Notes under the pieces: model-generated
Told to the model about the DNA's origin: nothing
Databases searched by the model: none
What the model saw: the letters and a program-made list of their open reading frames with translations, nothing else
In this document: positions 4,325 through 13,453 of the stretch, one piece after another
How the letters are laid out: every line of letters begins with the position of its first letter
How positions within the stretch are numbered: position 1 is the stretch's first letter
Source: a virus
Direction: 5' to 3' (one strand)
Length of the DNA stretch: 21,553 bases
IMG/VR virus record: IMGVR_UViG_3300033273_000136
Location: 1 to 21,553 of that record
Translations under genes and position numbers: made by a program

Positions 4325-5701
4325 ATGGAAAGAATTGAAAACATTGTCCTGAGGAACCTTGTTTTTCGGGAGGAATACATGCGGAAAGTTCTTCCATTCA
4401 TTGAACCTGAATATTTCAATGCCAGGGAAGAACGCATCATCTTTGAACAGATTGCAAAGTATGCTGCAGATTATGACAACTTGGTGACTCAGGAGATTCT
4501 TTCCATTGAGATTGAGAATCGCAATGACATTACTGAAGAAGAATCTGTCAACATCAATAAGATCATTAATTCTCTTGAGAATGTAGATGCAGACTTTGAT
4601 TGGTTGAGTGATACCACTGAGAAGTGGTGTCGTGATCGTGCGATCTATCTTGCACTGATGGAGTCTATTGGTATTGCAAACGATGAGGATCAGAAAAAAA
4701 CCAGAGATGCTATCCCAGACATTCTCTCAAAAGCCTTGGCGGTTTCTTTCAACCGTCATGTTGGACACGACTACCTAGAAGACTACGAACAACGCTATGA
4801 ACTCTATCATCGCAAGGAAGATAAGATTGAATTCGACCTTGAGTATCTCAACAAAATCACGAAAGGTGGTATACCTCGCAAGACTCTTAATGTCGCGCTT
4901 GCTGGTACGGGTGTCGGCAAGTCTCTATTCATGTGCCACTTCGCTAGCTCCGTGTTGCTCCAAGGACGGAACGTTCTGTACATTACAATGGAAATGGCAG
5001 AAGAGAAGATTGCTGAACGAATTGACGCAAACCTATTGAATGTAAATATTCAAGAGATCGTTGATCTACCCAAACAAATATTTGAATCAAAGGTATCAAA
5101 CCTTTCATCCAAAACTCAGGGTACATTGATCATCAAAGAATATCCTACCGCTTCCGCTCATGCTGGACACTTTAGGGCACTTCTTAGTGAACTTGCACTT
5201 AAGAAATCATTTAGACCTGATATTATTTTCGTTGATTACCTTAATATATGTGCTTCCTCTAGGTATCGCGGAAACAGCACTGTCAATTCATATTCGTATA
5301 TTAAGGCTATTGCAGAGGAACTTAGAGGGTTGGCTGTTGAAGCAAACGTCCCTATCGTATCTGCCACGCAGACCACTCGTTCTGGTTATGGTAGCTCTGA
5401 TGTTGAGCTTACTGACACTAGTGAGTCCTTTGGTCTCCCTGCTACTGCTGATCTTATGTTTGCCCTTATTTCTACTGAGGAACTTGAACAACTTGGTCAG
5501 ATAATGGTGAAACAATTGAAGAACCGATACAATGATCTCAACATGAATAAGAGATTTGTGATTGGTGTTGATCGTGCCAAGATGCGACTCTATGATTGCG
5601 AACAGTCTGCACAGGAAGACTTGCTTGACAGTGGACAGGATGAAGAGTATAATTACGAAGAAAAGAAAACTACCAAAAAATTTGAAGGTTTTAAGTTCTG
5701 A
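4325..5701 (+). CDS. 41: Replicative DNA helicase, DnaB-type, T4 gp41-like
   Basis: The hexameric 5'-3' replicative helicase that travels on the lagging strand with primase gp61. It has 458 residues, close to the family size. The N-terminal helical region (about 1-150) is followed by a RecA-like core: Walker A GTGVGKS at 194-200, a glutamate motif TMEMAEE from 221, Walker B IIFVDYLNIC at 300-309 and SATQT at 346-350. The C-terminus is acidic then lysine-rich. It ends in TGATG, overlapping the next start. The partner primase gene is about 10 kb away in the window, at 15363. No dedicated helicase loader gene was recognised here. Confidence 0.96.
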   Translation: MERIENIVLRNLVFREEYMRKVLPFIEPEYFNAREERIIFEQIAKYAADYDNLVTQEILSIEIENRNDITEEESVNINKIINSLENVDADFDWLSDTTEKWCRDRAIYLALMESIGIANDEDQKKTRDAIPDILSKALAVSFNRHVGHDYLEDYEQRYELYHRKEDKIEFDLEYLNKITKGGIPRKTLNVALAGTGVGKSLFMCHFASSVLLQGRNVLYITMEMAEEKIAERIDANLLNVNIQEIVDLPKQIFESKVSNLSSKTQGTLIIKEYPTASAHAGHFRALLSELALKKSFRPDIIFVDYLNICASSRYRGNSTVNSYSYIKAIAEELRGLAVEANVPIVSATQTTRSGYGSSDVELTDTSESFGLPATADLMFALISTEELEQLGQIMVKQLKNRYNDLNMNKRFVIGVDRAKMRLYDCEQSAQEDLLDSGQDEEYNYEEKKTTKKFEGFKF

Positions 5702-6111
5702 TGACTAATAGTATTGATTTCAAACGATATGAAAAGTTTGTTGATGCAGTCACCTCTGATGAATCGACAGACTTCCTTGCACTTTCTGACCGTCTGGTTG
5801 AACTTGATCGCAAGGGTGCAAACATCGAACGTCTTCTGACTGCAGGTGTTGGTATCAATGCTGAGGGTGGTGAGTTTCTTGAGATTGTCAAGAAGATGAT
5901 CTTTCAGGGCAAACCGTTCGATGCACACAACAAAGAACACATGATCATCGAACTGGGTGATCTGATGTGGTATGTTGCACAAGCTTGCATGGCACTTGAA
6001 ATTGATTTTGAAGATGTTATTTCACGTAACGTACAGAAACTTGAGAAACGTTACCCTGGTGGTAAGTTTGACATTTACTATTCTGAAAACCGCGCTGAGG
6101 ATGACCTGTGA
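5701..6111 (+). CDS. MazG-like nucleotide pyrophosphohydrolase
   Basis: A protein of 136 residues. The MazG superfamily hydrolyses nucleoside triphosphates to monophosphates and pyrophosphate using a four-helix bundle with EXXE and EXXD metal-binding motifs. Here EGGE (55-58) or EFLE (58-61) supplies the first, and ELGD at 84-87 the second, followed by the helix LMWYVAQACMALEI and the family-like NVQKLEKRYPGGKFD at 110-124. The gene overlaps gp41 at TGATG, so it is co-expressed with replication and may tune nucleotide pools. Whether it corresponds to the MazG gene studied in other cyanophages cannot be told without alignment. The substrate is unknown. Confidence 0.85.
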   Translation: MTNSIDFKRYEKFVDAVTSDESTDFLALSDRLVELDRKGANIERLLTAGVGINAEGGEFLEIVKKMIFQGKPFDAHNKEHMIIELGDLMWYVAQACMALEIDFEDVISRNVQKLEKRYPGGKFDIYYSENRAEDDL

Positions 6112-6500: not shown

Positions 6501-6507
6501 CTAAATA
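6501..6507 (+). promoter_or_regulatory. Late promoter motif CTAAATA, extended form CTAAATAAGG
   Basis: The motif lies 23 bases before the start of the gene at 6530, at a suitable distance for a late promoter. The ten bases CTAAATAAGG recur exactly at 20885-20894. It sits in a small inverted context: CCTT at 6497-6500 with AAGG at 6507-6510, inside GATCTC (6488-6493) and GAGATC (6519-6524). Confidence 0.6.
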
Positions 6508-6529
6508 AGGTATAAAAAGAGATCGGAGA

Positions 6530-7828
6530 ATGGCATACGAACCCTCTGAAGGATTGTATGCAGGAGCATCATTCCTGTCTACAAGTGAAATGAACAAAGC
6601 AGGACAAGATCCTGCTGCTTTTGATTCGTTATATGAAAAAATACTATCAAATTTAGAGAGTGGTAATGTACTCGATGCGGCAGGAAATGCCACAAAAAAG
6701 GGTATGATTGCTGCAATCCAAATTCCAAATGAAGCAGCAAAGAGAAAAGTTTATGCTGATATGGCAGCAGCAGTTTCTGCTGTATTAGGTACAAGAAGTA
6801 AAGTCAATCCTGGTATACCGGCAAAAGTTTATCTTACTGGTAACAAATGGCATCCTGATGTGGAGAGATTTAAGATCAATGCATATGGCATGGCAGATTA
6901 CAACTCTTCCGATGTTATTTTGTTGTATCCTCCAAGAACATATGTTGGTATATCCTTGAAAAAGAAACCAACAGCAGCAGCGGCAAGTCCTACCCTAATT
7001 AACAATGCTTTTTCAAAGTTTATTGAGGGCCCACAATTTAAATCAGTGCGTGATAAATTAAACGATCATCGTATTAAGTTCTTTGCTAGTGTAATTAAAG
7101 ATGCGTGTCAACCAGGTGGACCATTAGAGAATATTGCCCTTGCAAAAAGAGAGATTAGATATTACAATCCCAATAATAAACCTGATGCTCGTGCATTATG
7201 GGATATGAAAGTTGAGAGGATAAAAAATGGTAAACCGCAAGCAGTTGCACTCATTAATTTAAAAGGGGAGAGTGATTTAGGAAGAGATGGTATAATACAG
7301 AAGAGTGGAAGAGAACCATCACAACAAAGTTTCAGAAACTATGTTAACCAAAGACTGCAAAGTACAGGTGGTGCATTAAATCCTTTGTATCAAGGATTCT
7401 TGGATATTATGAATCAACCTCAGGTTGCTAACACTCTTGCAGACGCATTATTGACGAGAGTTCTTAAGTTAAATCTTTTAGATGAACTAAATACATGGAA
7501 ACAAGCAGATTTTGGTTTCTATTTAACAGAAGGTGTTGGTAGTGTTGATGGTTCTTTGAAACCTAATATAGGAAGTGCTAATGTGGTAGACATTCATAGT
7601 GTTATGATGACAATGGCATCATTGTCTAAACAATCTGCAAGTATGCAATTAGATAGGAAAAAGACATTTGCAAGAGATGCTGCTAAAGTGTTCTTTACAT
7701 TATATAAAGGATCATTGCCAATTCTTGATATTGAGCTAAGATATAAAGGATCATTTACTGCTTACCCACAATTTTTTGCAGGCATTACACCACAATTTAA
7801 GAAATTATTGAAAGATGGAAAGTTCTGA
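6530..7828 (+). CDS. Unknown protein, possible PD-(D/E)XK-like nuclease
   Basis: A protein of 432 residues that I do not recognise. It is soluble-looking, with alanine-rich helices at the start. A stretch at 123-146, DYNSSDVILL then YVGISLKKK, resembles a PD-(D/E)XK nuclease core of an acidic residue followed by a small residue, one position and lysine (D128, S142, K144). The C-terminus has a conserved-looking DIELRYKGSF from 400 and YPQFFAGITPQF. The nuclease reading is weak. The gene is visibly richer in A+T than its neighbours and favours AGA, TTA and ACA codons. The start has GGAG only one base before ATG, which is unusually close, but a later start would remove a plausible N-terminus. 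It has its own late promoter motif at 6501, suggesting an inserted expression unit. Confidence 0.85.
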   Translation: MAYEPSEGLYAGASFLSTSEMNKAGQDPAAFDSLYEKILSNLESGNVLDAAGNATKKGMIAAIQIPNEAAKRKVYADMAAAVSAVLGTRSKVNPGIPAKVYLTGNKWHPDVERFKINAYGMADYNSSDVILLYPPRTYVGISLKKKPTAAAASPTLINNAFSKFIEGPQFKSVRDKLNDHRIKFFASVIKDACQPGGPLENIALAKREIRYYNPNNKPDARALWDMKVERIKNGKPQAVALINLKGESDLGRDGIIQKSGREPSQQSFRNYVNQRLQSTGGALNPLYQGFLDIMNQPQVANTLADALLTRVLKLNLLDELNTWKQADFGFYLTEGVGSVDGSLKPNIGSANVVDIHSVMMTMASLSKQSASMQLDRKKTFARDAAKVFFTLYKGSLPILDIELRYKGSFTAYPQFFAGITPQFKKLLKDGKF

Positions 7829-7925: not shown

Positions 7926-9104
7926 ATGAAAAACACACACCTGGAACACCTAGAAGACAACATCATGAATGATGGGTCACGGGGTGGACGTGAGGCGATT
8001 GCATTTCTCCGATCACTTGGTGACATGTTGGATCAGGGTGCAGAGGATACTCGCGTGACCGTGAAGTGGGATGGTGCTCCTGCAGTTATCTGTGGTATCG
8101 ATCCACAAAAGGGTGACTTCTTTGTTGGTACAAAGTCTGTGTTCAACAAAGTGAACCCTAAGATCTGTTACTCTGAACAGGATGTGGATAAGATCTATCC
8201 ACCTGGACAACTTGCAGAGAAACTCAAAGCGTCATATCGATATCTTTCCAAACTTCCTATCCGTGGGGTAGTGCAGGGTGATCTCCTGTTCACTGATGAT
8301 AAGTATGTTGCAACCATCGGTGGTGATCGTTGCATTGCTTTCACACCGAATACCATCACCTATGCAGTGCCTGTAAAGAGTCCTTTGGGGCAGACGATTC
8401 AGACTGCTAAGTTGGGTATCGTATTTCACACCACATACTCTGGTAGTACTCTGGACACAATGGCTGCATCTTTTGGTGCGAATGTCCCTGGTGATGCGGA
8501 TGTGTTCGTTGCATCTGCAGAGTTCTCCAATGCGTCTGGTGAAGCCAACATGACTGTCACAGACAAGGCTAGGTACAACGCACTCATCAATCGTGCAGAG
8601 GGTTCTCTTCGACAATCCTCCAAGTTCTTGGATCTGATGAAGGGGAACGATAAGTTCTCTCTCAACTACATGTTCAAGATTTTTTTCAATCGTTATGTCC
8701 GTGAGGGTAAGTCTGGAATGACTGTCCGCAATACTGCGATGGACTTCGCGAAGTATTTCAGTGATGCCCTTGACAAAGAGATTGCATCAAAGAAGACAAA
8801 AAAGACACAAGATAAATACTTACAAATCAAGACCAATGGTCTTCGATTCATTTCTGCAAATTCAAATTCAATTTATATGACAGTTGCGTCGTATTACAAT
8901 TTGCAGGCAGCGAAACAGTTTATGATTAACAAGTTGCAAAAGGTAAATACTTTTGGCACTTTTCTCAGGACTGACGATGGTTACAGAGTCACTGCACCTG
9001 AGGGTTTTGTTGCAATTCGTTCTGGAAGAGCTTTAAAACTAGTAGATAGACTTGAGTTCAGTAGAGCCAACTTCACCGCAGCAAAGAACTGGGATAAACC
9101 ATGA
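7926..9104 (+). CDS. Ligase-like nucleotidyltransferase candidate (DUF6267-type phage protein)
   Basis: A protein of 392 residues. Near the N-terminus is VKWDGAPAV with K47-W-D-G50, matching motif I (K-x-D-G) of ATP-dependent DNA/RNA ligases and capping enzymes, where the lysine takes the nucleotide. FVGTKS follows at 66-71. VVQGDLLF at 115-122 could be motif III (usually G-E-L), and KLGIVFHTTY at 162-171 could be IIIa. No clear motif IV or V was found, so activity is uncertain. The opening HLEHLEDNIMNDG and the KWDG segment recall a family I remember as DUF6267 in marine T4-like phages. AAGG lies just one base before the ATG. The gene overlaps the next by four bases (ATGA), pairing it with another nucleotidyltransferase-type protein. 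Confidence 0.85.
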   Translation: MKNTHLEHLEDNIMNDGSRGGREAIAFLRSLGDMLDQGAEDTRVTVKWDGAPAVICGIDPQKGDFFVGTKSVFNKVNPKICYSEQDVDKIYPPGQLAEKLKASYRYLSKLPIRGVVQGDLLFTDDKYVATIGGDRCIAFTPNTITYAVPVKSPLGQTIQTAKLGIVFHTTYSGSTLDTMAASFGANVPGDADVFVASAEFSNASGEANMTVTDKARYNALINRAEGSLRQSSKFLDLMKGNDKFSLNYMFKIFFNRYVREGKSGMTVRNTAMDFAKYFSDALDKEIASKKTKKTQDKYLQIKTNGLRFISANSNSIYMTVASYYNLQAAKQFMINKLQKVNTFGTFLRTDDGYRVTAPEGFVAIRSGRALKLVDRLEFSRANFTAAKNWDKP

Positions 9105-10300
9105 AGAGTTTTAGTAAATTTATTCTTGAGGTTGTCACACAGGCATCCGATCAGGCCAAGAAGATGGGTCTGCAGAGTGATGGTCATGGCGATTATTATG
9201 ACAAGAGAGGTAAGTTAGTTGCCAAGACTGTCAATGGCAAACTGAAGTTCTTTGGTGCCAGTCGTCCACCCACTCCTGATGAAAGGAGTGCGATGGCTGC
9301 ACAACAACAGGCAGATGCAGAAGCCAAAGAGAAGGCAGAACGCGAAGAAGTCCGTAAGAGAGAGGGTGATCCTGCAGATCTGACAGTTGCGTTTGGTCGT
9401 TTCAATCCTCCTACGGTTGGACATGAGAAACTTCTGAACCGTGTGAAGAGTGCTGCAGGTAAGGGTGAGTATTTGATTTATCCTTCACGGTCAAACGATC
9501 CGAAGAAGAACCCTCTGGATCCCAAGACCAAGATCTCTTACATGCAAGCCATGTTCCCTGGCCATGCAGAGAACATCGTTGATGACCCAAGTGCAAAGAC
9601 CATCTTTGATGTTCTCAAGGGTGCCAGTGGTCGTGGTGCCAGAAGTATTAACATCGTTGTTGGTGCAGACAGACTCAAAGAGTTTGAGAACCTGGCAAAC
9701 AAATACAACGGTGACCTGTATGACTTCGATCGCATTCGTGTGATTTCTGCAGGTGAGAGAGATGCAGAGTCTGAAGGTGTGGAAGGAATGTCCGCATCCA
9801 AACTGCGTGCTGCTGCAGTCAAGGGTGACTTTGAAACCTTCCGTAAAGGTGTACCCAAAGCTCTGGGTGATGAAGGAACTGAAAAACTTTATGGCACCAT
9901 CCGTAAGAGTATGGGTGTCAAAGAGAAGGAAGTTCAGAAGGAGATGTGGAAGATCGCTCCTAAGTTTGATTGGAAGAACCTGAGAGAGAACTATGTGAAT
10001 GGTAATCTCTTCCGCATGGGTGACATCATTGAGAACGATAATACTGGATTGGTTGGAAAGATTATTCGTCGTGGTGCAAACTACATCATCGCGGTGACTG
10101 AAGACAACATGATGTTCAAGTCTTGGATTAAGGACATCGCTGAGAAGTTCACAGATGTGTCTGGTGTACCCCCAGATCAACGTTTGATTGGTACTGACGC
10201 ACACCGTGAATATGTTCAGCGTCTTGCACACAATCCAGTTATCATTAATTTTATAAATAAATCTAGGAAAAAACGTGCAAAGAGAAATGTTTCCAACTGA
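9101..10300 (+). CDS. Cytidylyltransferase-like protein with head-targeting-type leader and KOW-like domain
   Basis: A protein of 399 residues with three parts. Residues 1-10 are MKSFSKFILE, close to the T4 internal-protein leader MKTYQEFIAE, which ends in the E cut by the prohead protease. A charged linker follows (about 60-92). The core at 94-270 is a nucleotidyltransferase of the HIGH superfamily: GRFNPPTVGH at 99-108 gives the TxGH motif, VVGADRL is at 186-192, and SASKLR at 231-236 resembles the second nucleotide-binding motif. Such enzymes move a nucleotide onto a phosphate-bearing substrate; the substrate here is unknown. Residues 306-345 (GDIIENDNTGLVGKIIRR and after) look like a small KOW/SH3-like barrel. 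The C-terminus is basic. It overlaps the ligase-like gene by four bases. Confidence 0.9.
   Translation: MKSFSKFILEVVTQASDQAKKMGLQSDGHGDYYDKRGKLVAKTVNGKLKFFGASRPPTPDERSAMAAQQQADAEAKEKAEREEVRKREGDPADLTVAFGRFNPPTVGHEKLLNRVKSAAGKGEYLIYPSRSNDPKKNPLDPKTKISYMQAMFPGHAENIVDDPSAKTIFDVLKGASGRGARSINIVVGADRLKEFENLANKYNGDLYDFDRIRVISAGERDAESEGVEGMSASKLRAAAVKGDFETFRKGVPKALGDEGTEKLYGTIRKSMGVKEKEVQKEMWKIAPKFDWKNLRENYVNGNLFRMGDIIENDNTGLVGKIIRRGANYIIAVTEDNMMFKSWIKDIAEKFTDVSGVPPDQRLIGTDAHREYVQRLAHNPVIINFINKSRKKRAKRNVSN
10252..10259 (+). promoter_or_regulatory. Perfect T4-type late promoter TATAAATA
   Basis: This is an exact match to the T4 late promoter core, within the 3' end of the nucleotidyltransferase gene and 28 bases before the ATG of the next gene. 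Transcription from it would begin near 10265, leaving a short leader with AGGA. It supports late expression of the genes that follow. Confidence 0.65.
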
Positions 10301-11128: not shown

Positions 11129-11168
11129 GGGGCATCGCCTAAATCACCTCACTGTGTGGTGATGCCCC
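11129..11168 (+). promoter_or_regulatory. Hairpin covering the start codon of the following gene
   Basis: GGGGC (11129-11133) pairs with GCCCC (11164-11168), and ATCACC (11143-11148) pairs with GGTGAT (11158-11163). GGGGCATC can also pair directly with GATGCCCC. Both folds bury the candidate start codons at 11156, 11159 and 11162. No T-run follows, so it is more likely a translation control or processing site than a terminator. Confidence 0.5.
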
Positions 11169-13453
11169 CTAAGGACGATGATGATCCTGCATCGACCAAA
11201 GAGGTAGTTACTAAGAAACAAAAACAACTTCTCAATCGTGAGGAGTTGAACCTCGCTGCGATTGCAGAAGCCTTTGGTGGTCTTCTGTTAGAAGCACCTG
11301 CTAAGAAAGGATCTGGTAAAGGTTCTGATCTACCATTCAAAGAACCAGAACCAGATCCAGTATCTAAGAAAGATGCGAAAAAACTTCAGAGGATGACCAG
11401 AGCCTCTGGACCTGCAGCTGAAAGAATTCAGAGAGGACTTGAATCACAAGAGAAGTTAAGTAAGACAAGAAAAACACGTTCTTCTGCACAAACTTCAAAA
11501 TATCAGTTTGATCCAAAGACTGGAGCACCTACCAGAAAGAGTGTAGAGACTTACGCAACTAGACTTACAACTAGAGGTTATGGTGATGCAGGATATGATC
11601 CTTCGAAGAGAGGTGTATCCGATCCTGCTGGACAAGCTAAAGGTGTAAGAGATACTTTTGCAGCTGCTGATAGAGGTGATGCAAAAGCAAAACAACAAGT
11701 TCAGAAATGGACAGACGCTTTAACTAAAAAACATGGTCCATCCGCTGGGGTAACAGAACCTCGGGGTGGACAAAGAATCAGAAGTAGAGTTACTGGTCAA
11801 ACTAGACGGACTAGAACTTCTGCCGACAGAGGTCTTCGTGACATGCAGGGTAGAAAAGGTCAAGCACCTTTAGATCCTGAATTGCAAAGAGCTGCATCGC
11901 GTCGTGCAGGTCAAGTTCCAGACGAACCAACAGTTGGTAAACCAACGGTTAAAAAAGGTGAAGCTGCTAGAACCAGAGCAAGGGGTCAAGCACAAGCACA
12001 AGGTGCTGGAAGACCTGGACGTGGTTCAAGTGGTAGAACTGGTCGTCAGATTTTGAGATCTCTTATTGGTAGAGAAGCTGATATTGAAAGAATCAAGTCT
12101 GAAATTGATGCTAAGGAGAAGAGACAGGCTGAAAGAAGAAAAGCCGGTCAAGTAAAGAGACAACAAACTCTGGTTAGAAAAGACACTGCAACCAGAATAG
12201 GTGCTCAGGACACTCCTAAAGTTCGTAGCACACCAAAGGTCGGTGGTCCTGTAGGTGGATATAGAGCCCCTGCACAACCCACACCTGGTAATGTTGCAAG
12301 ACAAATGCAGGTTCCTAAAGGTGAGATGACCAGACTCAGAGCAAAAACCACTCCTAGCGGCCAACCTAGAGGTGCTAGTGGTGGTGATGCTGGTGCTAGA
12401 GCAAGAACAAGGTTAGCAATAAAACGAGCAACTGCAGGAAGCGATGCAGCCGCTAGACGTGTTGCATCCACCGCCAAACCCACACCCACGCCAACACCAA
12501 CACCAACACCTACGCCAACACCTAAACCAACACCTACGCCAACACCTAAACCAACACCTGTTGTAACTAGATCGGTTGGACAATCAGTAGCAGGTGAGCC
12601 AGTGCCTTCTTATTCCCCTCCACCAAGAACTGAGAGACCAAAGATTCTTGATGCAACTGATCGTTTTAATGATCGATTTGCAGCTGCCGCTGCCGATGAT
12701 CTTAAGAAATCTGGGCTTGGTGCTGACTTAGGTGCAGATGAGTTACTTGATAAAATTAATCAAGGTAGAAAATCAAAACCAACACCAACACCAACACCTA
12801 CGCCAAAACCAAAACTGCCTCAGTGGATGCAAGACTTCCGAAGAGGAGCTGAAAGGGCTCGCAAAAAGATTCCTTCAGTTGCTAAAATTCTTCCTGGTGT
12901 TCAAAAAGCTGCGATAGCTGCTGACATAGGTGCTGTTGTTGGAGGGGGAGTAGGTGAAATACGAAGAGCTCAAATTGACAGAAAACTTAAAAAATTACCA
13001 ACAACAAAAACGAAAACTGGCACAACGATCACTTACGTTCCTCCAGACAAAGATGGTAACTTCAATGCCCGCATGTATCCTGATGCAATCAAACAACTAA
13101 CAAAGGCACAGTTGGATGCACTGACTCCAGCACAAAAATACATGACTCAAGCTCAATATGATAAATCAATTGCTGGGACTGATCTGGCAATAAAGACGGA
13201 GCCAAAGACAGAACCGGCGACAGTAAAGGCACCTCCAAAACCAAAAGGTTCAGTGACAACAGCTGATCCGAATAATCAAACTGGAGTAAATCCAGACGCT
13301 GCTGCAGCCACTGCCGCTGCTTTGGCTGCAGCGAATCAGGTTAATCGTCGTGGAAGAAAAACTACCCGCAAAACTCCTGGAGGTGGTAGATTACCTGGTA
13401 TTGGACTGCCTGGTTATCGCGGAAAAATTGGTAGGAGATCGAATCCACAATAA
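11162..13453 (+). CDS. Large basic low-complexity protein with Thr-Pro linkers, probable virion or internal head protein
   Basis: A protein of 763 residues (765 if the GTG at 11156 is used), strongly basic and low in complexity, with many Arg, Lys, Gln, Thr, Ala and Gly. The start DDDD cluster is followed by a helix with AIAEAF (cut pattern E36-A37) and LLLEAP (E44-A45), both matching the prohead protease consensus. A long Arg-rich region to about 430 suits nucleic-acid binding. Thr-Pro repeats occupy about 440-466 and 540-550 and act as stiff linkers. A more hydrophobic, Gly-rich stretch (AAIADIGAVVGGGVGEI) lies between basic segments at about 575-600. The tail is Gly/Arg-rich. No Shine-Dalgarno sequence precedes the start, which lies inside a hairpin. 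No enzyme domain is recognised. Confidence 0.82.
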   Translation: MPPKDDDDPASTKEVVTKKQKQLLNREELNLAAIAEAFGGLLLEAPAKKGSGKGSDLPFKEPEPDPVSKKDAKKLQRMTRASGPAAERIQRGLESQEKLSKTRKTRSSAQTSKYQFDPKTGAPTRKSVETYATRLTTRGYGDAGYDPSKRGVSDPAGQAKGVRDTFAAADRGDAKAKQQVQKWTDALTKKHGPSAGVTEPRGGQRIRSRVTGQTRRTRTSADRGLRDMQGRKGQAPLDPELQRAASRRAGQVPDEPTVGKPTVKKGEAARTRARGQAQAQGAGRPGRGSSGRTGRQILRSLIGREADIERIKSEIDAKEKRQAERRKAGQVKRQQTLVRKDTATRIGAQDTPKVRSTPKVGGPVGGYRAPAQPTPGNVARQMQVPKGEMTRLRAKTTPSGQPRGASGGDAGARARTRLAIKRATAGSDAAARRVASTAKPTPTPTPTPTPTPTPKPTPTPTPKPTPVVTRSVGQSVAGEPVPSYSPPPRTERPKILDATDRFNDRFAAAAADDLKKSGLGADLGADELLDKINQGRKSKPTPTPTPTPKPKLPQWMQDFRRGAERARKKIPSVAKILPGVQKAAIAADIGAVVGGGVGEIRRAQIDRKLKKLPTTKTKTGTTITYVPPDKDGNFNARMYPDAIKQLTKAQLDALTPAQKYMTQAQYDKSIAGTDLAIKTEPKTEPATVKAPPKPKGSVTTADPNNQTGVNPDAAAATAAALAAANQVNRRGRKTTRKTPGGGRLPGIGLPGYRGKIGRRSNPQ
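12479..12559 (+). repeat. CCAACA/CCTACG-type microsatellite encoding Thr-Pro repeats
   Basis: Degenerate six-base units (CCAACA, CCTACG, CCTAAA) repeat through 81 bases and encode alternating Thr-Pro with two Lys-Pro steps. The longer unit CCAACACCTACG/CCAACACCTAAA is itself duplicated. It is in frame throughout the large basic protein. Confidence 0.85.
12779..12811 (+). repeat. Second Thr-Pro coding repeat
   Basis: A shorter copy of the CCAACA/CCTACG array in the same reading frame, about 220 bases after the first, encoding Pro-Thr-Pro repeats between lysines. It probably arose from the first array or by the same slippage process. Confidence 0.8.

Follow-up and report, generated by a model that had tools for sequence, protein, structure and literature searches.

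The active site of the Hjc Holliday junction resolvases, which like HincII belong to the PD-(D/E)XK superfamily, has the form D...ExK; in HinP1I and MspI the middle residue of the motif is non-acidic (Q and N, respectively). The window analyzed here, 21,553 nucleotides long, derives from a T4-like cyanophage that infects ocean cyanobacteria. Marine T4-like phages keep the recombination genes of T4, and UvsX, UvsY, gp46, and gp47 are reported for all cyanomyoviruses (PMC2984593). The S-PM2 protein named gp49 is a homing enzyme (PMC6083498). The gene at positions 6530–7828 of the window is probably a late nuclease gene of the PD-(D/E)XK type, long established in T4-like cyanophages.

The open reading frame is intact over its 432 codons. 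Genes for gp43, UvsX, gp41, and MazG are located to its left, and those for a DUF6267 protein, a cytidylyltransferase-like protein, gp61 and ribonucleotide reductase to its right (Table 1), several of these names being taken from gene order and similarity to S-SM2. The product matches PHROG 3060 over its full length (E 1.2e-72, residues 1–430 against profile positions 146–557 of 562). It is thus a member of this PHROG, which is itself unannotated (function unknown) and whose S-MbCM6 and S-MS29 members are longer at the N-terminus by about 145 residues. No Pfam family, including the Endonuclease_7 domain, matched the protein at E ≤ 1, and neither Rfam families nor tRNAs were found within the window.

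Table 1. Features of the locus (positions in the window)
Feature	Position	Strand	Remarks
MazG	5701..6111	+	marks the left side of the slot
CTAAATA, putative T4-type late promoter	6501..6507	+	29 nt before ATG
GGAGA	6525..6529	+	adjoins the start codon directly; not conserved in relatives
CDS	6530..7828	+	432 aa; belongs to PHROG 3060; nuclease fold of the PD-(D/E)XK type predicted
E7	6548..6550	+	nearly invariant acidic residue, first helix; possible motif I
D128	6911..6913	+	invariant Asp at strand E129-133, putatively binding metal
S142-L143-K144	6953..6961	+	invariant; (D/E)xK motif in its SxK form, strand E137-146
R404-F415	7739..7774	+	R404, Y405, G407, P413, F415 invariant
DUF6267 gene	7926..9104	+	frequent right neighbor of the slot
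Cytidylyltransferase-like gene (T4-GC190 type)	9101..10300	+	right landmark of the slot

Other genes of the window have features of their own. The DUF6267 protein contains a KWDGAPA stretch, which we take to resemble a nucleotidyltransferase/ligase motif, and matched RNA ligase below the threshold (E 0.03). A C-terminal GDVNNDGKKDGTDKYLMKRRGAIKKAI-like stretch in the product of 10275–11126 matches the otherwise different PHROGs 3326, 38880, 764, and 22379; could it be a shared tag or binding module? The gene at 11156–13453 codes for a long PT/TP-repeat protein and resembles the 6530–7828 gene in its low GC3 (0.218) and preference for AGA (49 of 76 Arg codons).

The initial annotation had noted a motif just upstream of the gene and assigned it to a late promoter. 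The motif, CTAAATAAGG, is indeed present at 6501–6510; the cyanophage late promoter given for S-PM2 is NATAAATA (PMC2984593). The assignment is supported by the relatives: of 99 distinct PHROG 3060 upstream regions, 92 have NTAAATA between positions −50 and −16, against 7.9 expected from shuffles. It was also found upstream in 22 of 23, 9 of 10 and 8 of 8 regions of three other families that occupy the same slot, which is bounded by mazG on one side and by the DUF6267/cytidylyltransferase genes on the other. The unusually tight ribosome-binding site noted in the same annotation exists as well, but its lack of conservation deprives it of weight.

A recount confirmed the low G+C content of the gene (20 of 60 at 7141–7200 against 33 of 60 at 8041–8100) and its preference for AGA (13 of 18 Arg codons) and TTA (16 of 41 Leu codons). 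Its GC3 is 0.226, against roughly 0.22–0.51 in the rest of the window, and in the codon-usage comparison with the rest of the window it ranks first of the 16 genes tested (z = 13.2), followed in synonymous codon z by the 11156–13453 gene (11.9) and gp43 (7.5). This composition exceeds chance, yet it does not indicate recent arrival. In S-SM2 (64% identity) and Sf-CH8 (33%) the gene likewise lies after mazG and before the cytidylyltransferase gene, and Syn33, S-MS29, and S-MbCM6 carry remote, mostly longer versions at the same place. GC3 is below that of the measured neighbors in 86 of 90 loci with a related gene (mean difference −0.081), these loci not being mutually independent; loci with fewer than 900 bases of neighbors or with identical first 600 bases of the target were excluded.

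Codon style in S-SM2 differs between expression classes, which were assigned by the author from gene names, with gp20 absent from the list. The 26 late virion genes, compared with 26 early/metabolic ones, have a mean AGA share of 0.67 vs. 0.24, a TTA share of 0.21 vs. 0.10 and a GC3 of 0.30 vs. 0.42 (p 2e-6 for GC3 and likewise for A-ending codons), gp23 and gp21 being exceptions among the late genes. The S-SM2 relative of the 6530–7828 gene (AGA 8/10, TTA 18/44, GC3 0.20) groups with the late genes. The S-SM2 genome has tRNAs for the AGA and UUA codons, recovered again by ARAGORN, and the AGA/TTA bias may serve late translation. The gene is probably long established and late-expressed. An AT-rich, AGA/TTA-rich composition in such genomes can signal late expression rather than recent transfer.

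In the S-SM2 record (GU071095.1) the tRNA annotations lie about 55 bases downstream of the ARAGORN positions (tRNA-Ala is annotated at 129365–129437 and found at 129310–129382), so that the apparent overlap of a tRNA with the start of the target gene is an annotation slip. In 8 of the 27 scanned loci (L010, L013, L014, L017, L025, L026, L030, and L042), the end of a tRNA-Ala(TGC) gene lies about 28–35 bases upstream of the target gene.

Residues D128, S142, L143, and K144, in which the initial annotation had seen a hint of a PD-(D/E)XK-like core, are invariant in an alignment of 68 relatives, as are T103, G104, W107, Y124–D128, G140, P154, and N158. The alignment was limited to ATG-starting ORFs of at least 250 codons, with the loss of fragment loci, and 68 of 157 sequences were then kept. 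The arrangement typical of the superfamily, Asp and (D/E)xK in adjacent strands, is present as a variant in which Ser replaces Asp/Glu. The AlphaFold2 model of the protein has a pLDDT of 90.3 and a pTM of 0.85. Its best match in VIA-align 2 is HinP1I (2fkc; Z 8.2, rmsd 4.6, 219 aligned of 247), followed by the second HinP1I entry 1ynm (Z 7.9) and MspI (Z 7.5), with the next row at 4.6; Hjc and HincII appear at Z 4.4–3.2 among weaker unrelated rows. According to the note of the tool, best Z values of 7–8 are common without kinship and a Z near 8 is borderline; for this reason the fold assignment leans on motif agreement and on a second model, that of the S-SM1 slot protein. Foldseek against PDB revealed no match at E ≤ 0.001 for either model, and a PDB sequence search, of a kind that misses distant relatives, revealed no nuclease. 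Seven matches at E ≤ 0.001 in a viral structure library are all uncharacterized or unnamed phage proteins. The suggestion that the gene encodes a nuclease is supported by the combination of the invariant D128...S142-L-K144 residues and the confident predicted model nearest to HinP1I and MspI.

The same interval was inspected in 23 named isolates, picked by the author for diversity (the cytidylyltransferase occurs in 519 records, 60 of which were listed). In 18 of them the slot holds one protein with the pattern D-hydrophobic-hydrophobic...hydrophobic-S/E-x-K, and these proteins belong to eight PHROGs: 3060 in five isolates (S-SM2, Sf-CH8, Syn33, S-MS29, and S-MbCM6), 1462 in four, 19894, 2496, and 22045 in two each, and 13937, 26930, and 8438 in one each. 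Assignment was run on the slot proteins, while S-MbCM6, S-SM2, and Syn33 were assigned by whole-genome search. PHROGs 1462 and 19894 are related, the 1462 profile also matching the slot of both 19894 genomes. A slot protein is absent in S-SRM01, ACG-2014f, S-CAM7, S-CRM01, and MC09. Whole-genome searches with PHROGs 3060, 1462, 22045, and 2496 found these four in the slot only and never two per genome. NTAAATA precedes the slot gene in all 17 isolates checked; in Syn33 it stands before a separate upstream ORF, and S-MbCM6 is outside these lists. The occurrence of one D...(S/E)xK protein at this slot in 18 of 23 cyanophages, with a late promoter in 17 of 17 checked, is new here: no description of the slot was found in the open-access literature, in a search that did not query it by name and whose coverage leaves out most subscription papers.

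All 19 slot proteins (those of the 18 isolates plus that of the window) have the D...(S/E)xK pattern, against 7 of 159 control ORFs (other ORFs of 200 or more codons from the same loci) and 4% of shuffles; as the sequences had already been inspected when the pattern was defined, the p value of this comparison is not blind. In S-ShM2 and S-B64 the reported string is another match, and the DIW...SLK match was seen separately. The S-SM1 slot protein (PHROG 22045) was modeled independently, with a pLDDT of 88.8. Its best structural matches are MspI (Z 8.5) and HhaI endonuclease (Z 6.0); I-Ssp6803I and Hjc score lower, with unrelated rows interspersed. The structural models thus cover two of the eight PHROGs (3060 and 22045), the remaining six being represented by the motif alone. 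Profile–profile comparison (hhalign) revealed no link between the target and the S-SM1 type (E 0.49), between the target and the S-T4 type, or between the S-SM1 and 1462 types; the target and 1462 share only a 26–27-column stretch around GISLKK (probability 8 and 19%). It is conceivable, although somewhat short of an even chance, that sequence-unrelated PD-(D/E)XK nucleases with SxK (once ExK) motifs interchange at this late-promoter slot, one per genome, and supply an unrecognized late nuclease function, perhaps that of the missing Holliday-junction resolvase. If true, the slot nuclease set would put a name to eight PHROGs of hitherto unknown function.

The slot protein might instead be a restriction-like nuclease with sequence specificity that is produced late and directed at the DNA of the host or of competing phages, with its own genome free of the sites and the slot serving to swap weapons. 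The nearest folds of both slot models are restriction enzymes, and the exchange of eight PHROGs at a single slot, where each genome has one of the families searched, would agree with such a role. A restriction enzyme with a short site implies that its own genome should be without that site, and a cyanophage with such an enzyme can purge it fully: CTAG, the site cut by MjaI, is absent from the 190,789 bases of S-SM2 (0 vs. 291 expected), which carries a free-standing MjaI-family gene (PF09568, E 1.2e-46) at 50147–50671 (147–671 of L174). Among the 23 genomes this family occurs in S-SM2 alone, also the only sampled genome that lost CTAG, and site purging was rejected as a sign of restriction by the slot protein, the CTAG loss being attributable to this separate gene and nothing being family-specific. 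No 4-bp palindrome is purged across PHROG 3060, every one being present in all four 3060q subgroups, and depletion of 6-bp palindromes (AGCGCT, GACGTC, and others) is alike across slot families and partly seen in genomes without a slot protein. No methyltransferase family was found by Pfam and PHROG among the scanned neighbors of the gene. Most slot carriers have no CCGG or next to none (Syn33 0/35 and S-B64 0/44, observed/expected), but S-SM2, Sf-CH8, and each of the five isolates that lack a slot protein do contain it; its loss was set aside as evidence because it tracks lineages and is inconstant within PHROG 3060 (74/165 in S-SM2, 40/57 and 82/123 in two 3060q subgroups). The window contains 3 CCGG vs. 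19 expected and 7 GCGC vs. 21 expected, DNA modification being outside the reach of such counts. The absence of family-wide 4-bp loss, together with 6-bp depletion common to other slot families, leans, without proof, toward a structure-selective nuclease, and the restriction-like role appears rather unlikely.

Replacement of the second acidic residue by Ser would also suit a protein that keeps the nuclease fold but no longer cuts, acting in DNA binding or as a virion component; also in favor of this reading, the S-SM1 orthologue of the neighboring cytidylyltransferase-like protein (9101–10300) was detected in virions (PMC3037559). However, D, S, K and the nearby Asn/Pro are invariant in the 68 relatives, as expected of a working site, MspI and HinP1I are likewise non-acidic at the middle position, and the accessible part of PMC3037559 contains no report of the target protein in virions. 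Loss of cutting is improbable, and catalysis by the 6530–7828 protein quite likely. The initial annotation had proposed a newly acquired gene, in view of how strongly its codon and base use departs from the rest of the window. This proposal fails by its own test and was rejected, because in relatives the gene occupies the same slot and shows the same composition (86 of 90 loci) and the AGA/TTA style is common to S-SM2 late virion genes; with the promoter conserved as well, recent acquisition of a foreign gene is very improbable.

Samples of 51–53 kb from S-SM1, ACG-2014d, S-ShM2, S-CAM7, S-CAM1, and DSL-LC02 have each lost one short site (single-strand counts GTAC 0/160, TCGA 0/90, TTAA 0/178, and GGCC 0/64; both-strand counts CTNAG 0/239 and GACC 0/153). 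Other orphan restriction enzymes are possibly behind these losses. The TaqI family, found in 0 of 23 genomes, was rejected as the cause of the TCGA loss in ACG-2014d.

For the preferred assignment, a late PD-(D/E)XK nuclease, a course of action can be proposed. The late promoter would turn the gene on together with the virion genes, in keeping with its late-style AGA/TTA codons; D128 and its neighbors would hold the metal and K144 would activate the attack, by analogy with MspI and HinP1I; and the likeliest mechanism would be that the enzyme, with the help of metal ions, cuts phage DNA that is branched or nicked, late in infection and before or during packaging, by analogy with T4 endonuclease VII. 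This debranching role is put forward tentatively. The endonuclease VII family was found in 1 of the 23 genomes searched, S-SRM01, whose slot is without such a protein, and no match was detected in the other 22. Mutual exclusion with the slot nuclease was not accepted, a single genome with that family being too few. The main difficulty is that ACG-2014f, S-CAM7, S-CRM01, and MC09 have neither, which means that such phages would not strictly need a resolvase of this kind. Debranching by a nuclease made late would close the endonuclease VII gap, and the slot-conserved set would provide a testable candidate for DNA debranching in these abundant viruses.

Overall, the likeness to T4 endonuclease VII (gp49) is confined to the proposed role, late DNA cutting before packaging; that enzyme has its own zinc/His-based fold (PMC6083498), and the target is without an Endonuclease_7 match. 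Hjc resolvases are weaker structural matches (Z 4.4 and 3.7, below the trust level of the tool), and the target has SxK in place of their ExK. HinP1I and MspI differ from the target in having no detectable sequence similarity to it and in their length (241–262 vs. 432 residues), while the target is a phage late gene with no methyltransferase found beside it and no purged 4-bp site. They are the best structural matches of the two slot models, accompanied by HhaI for the S-SM1 protein, and share with them a pair of strands bearing D...xK in which the middle residue is not acidic.
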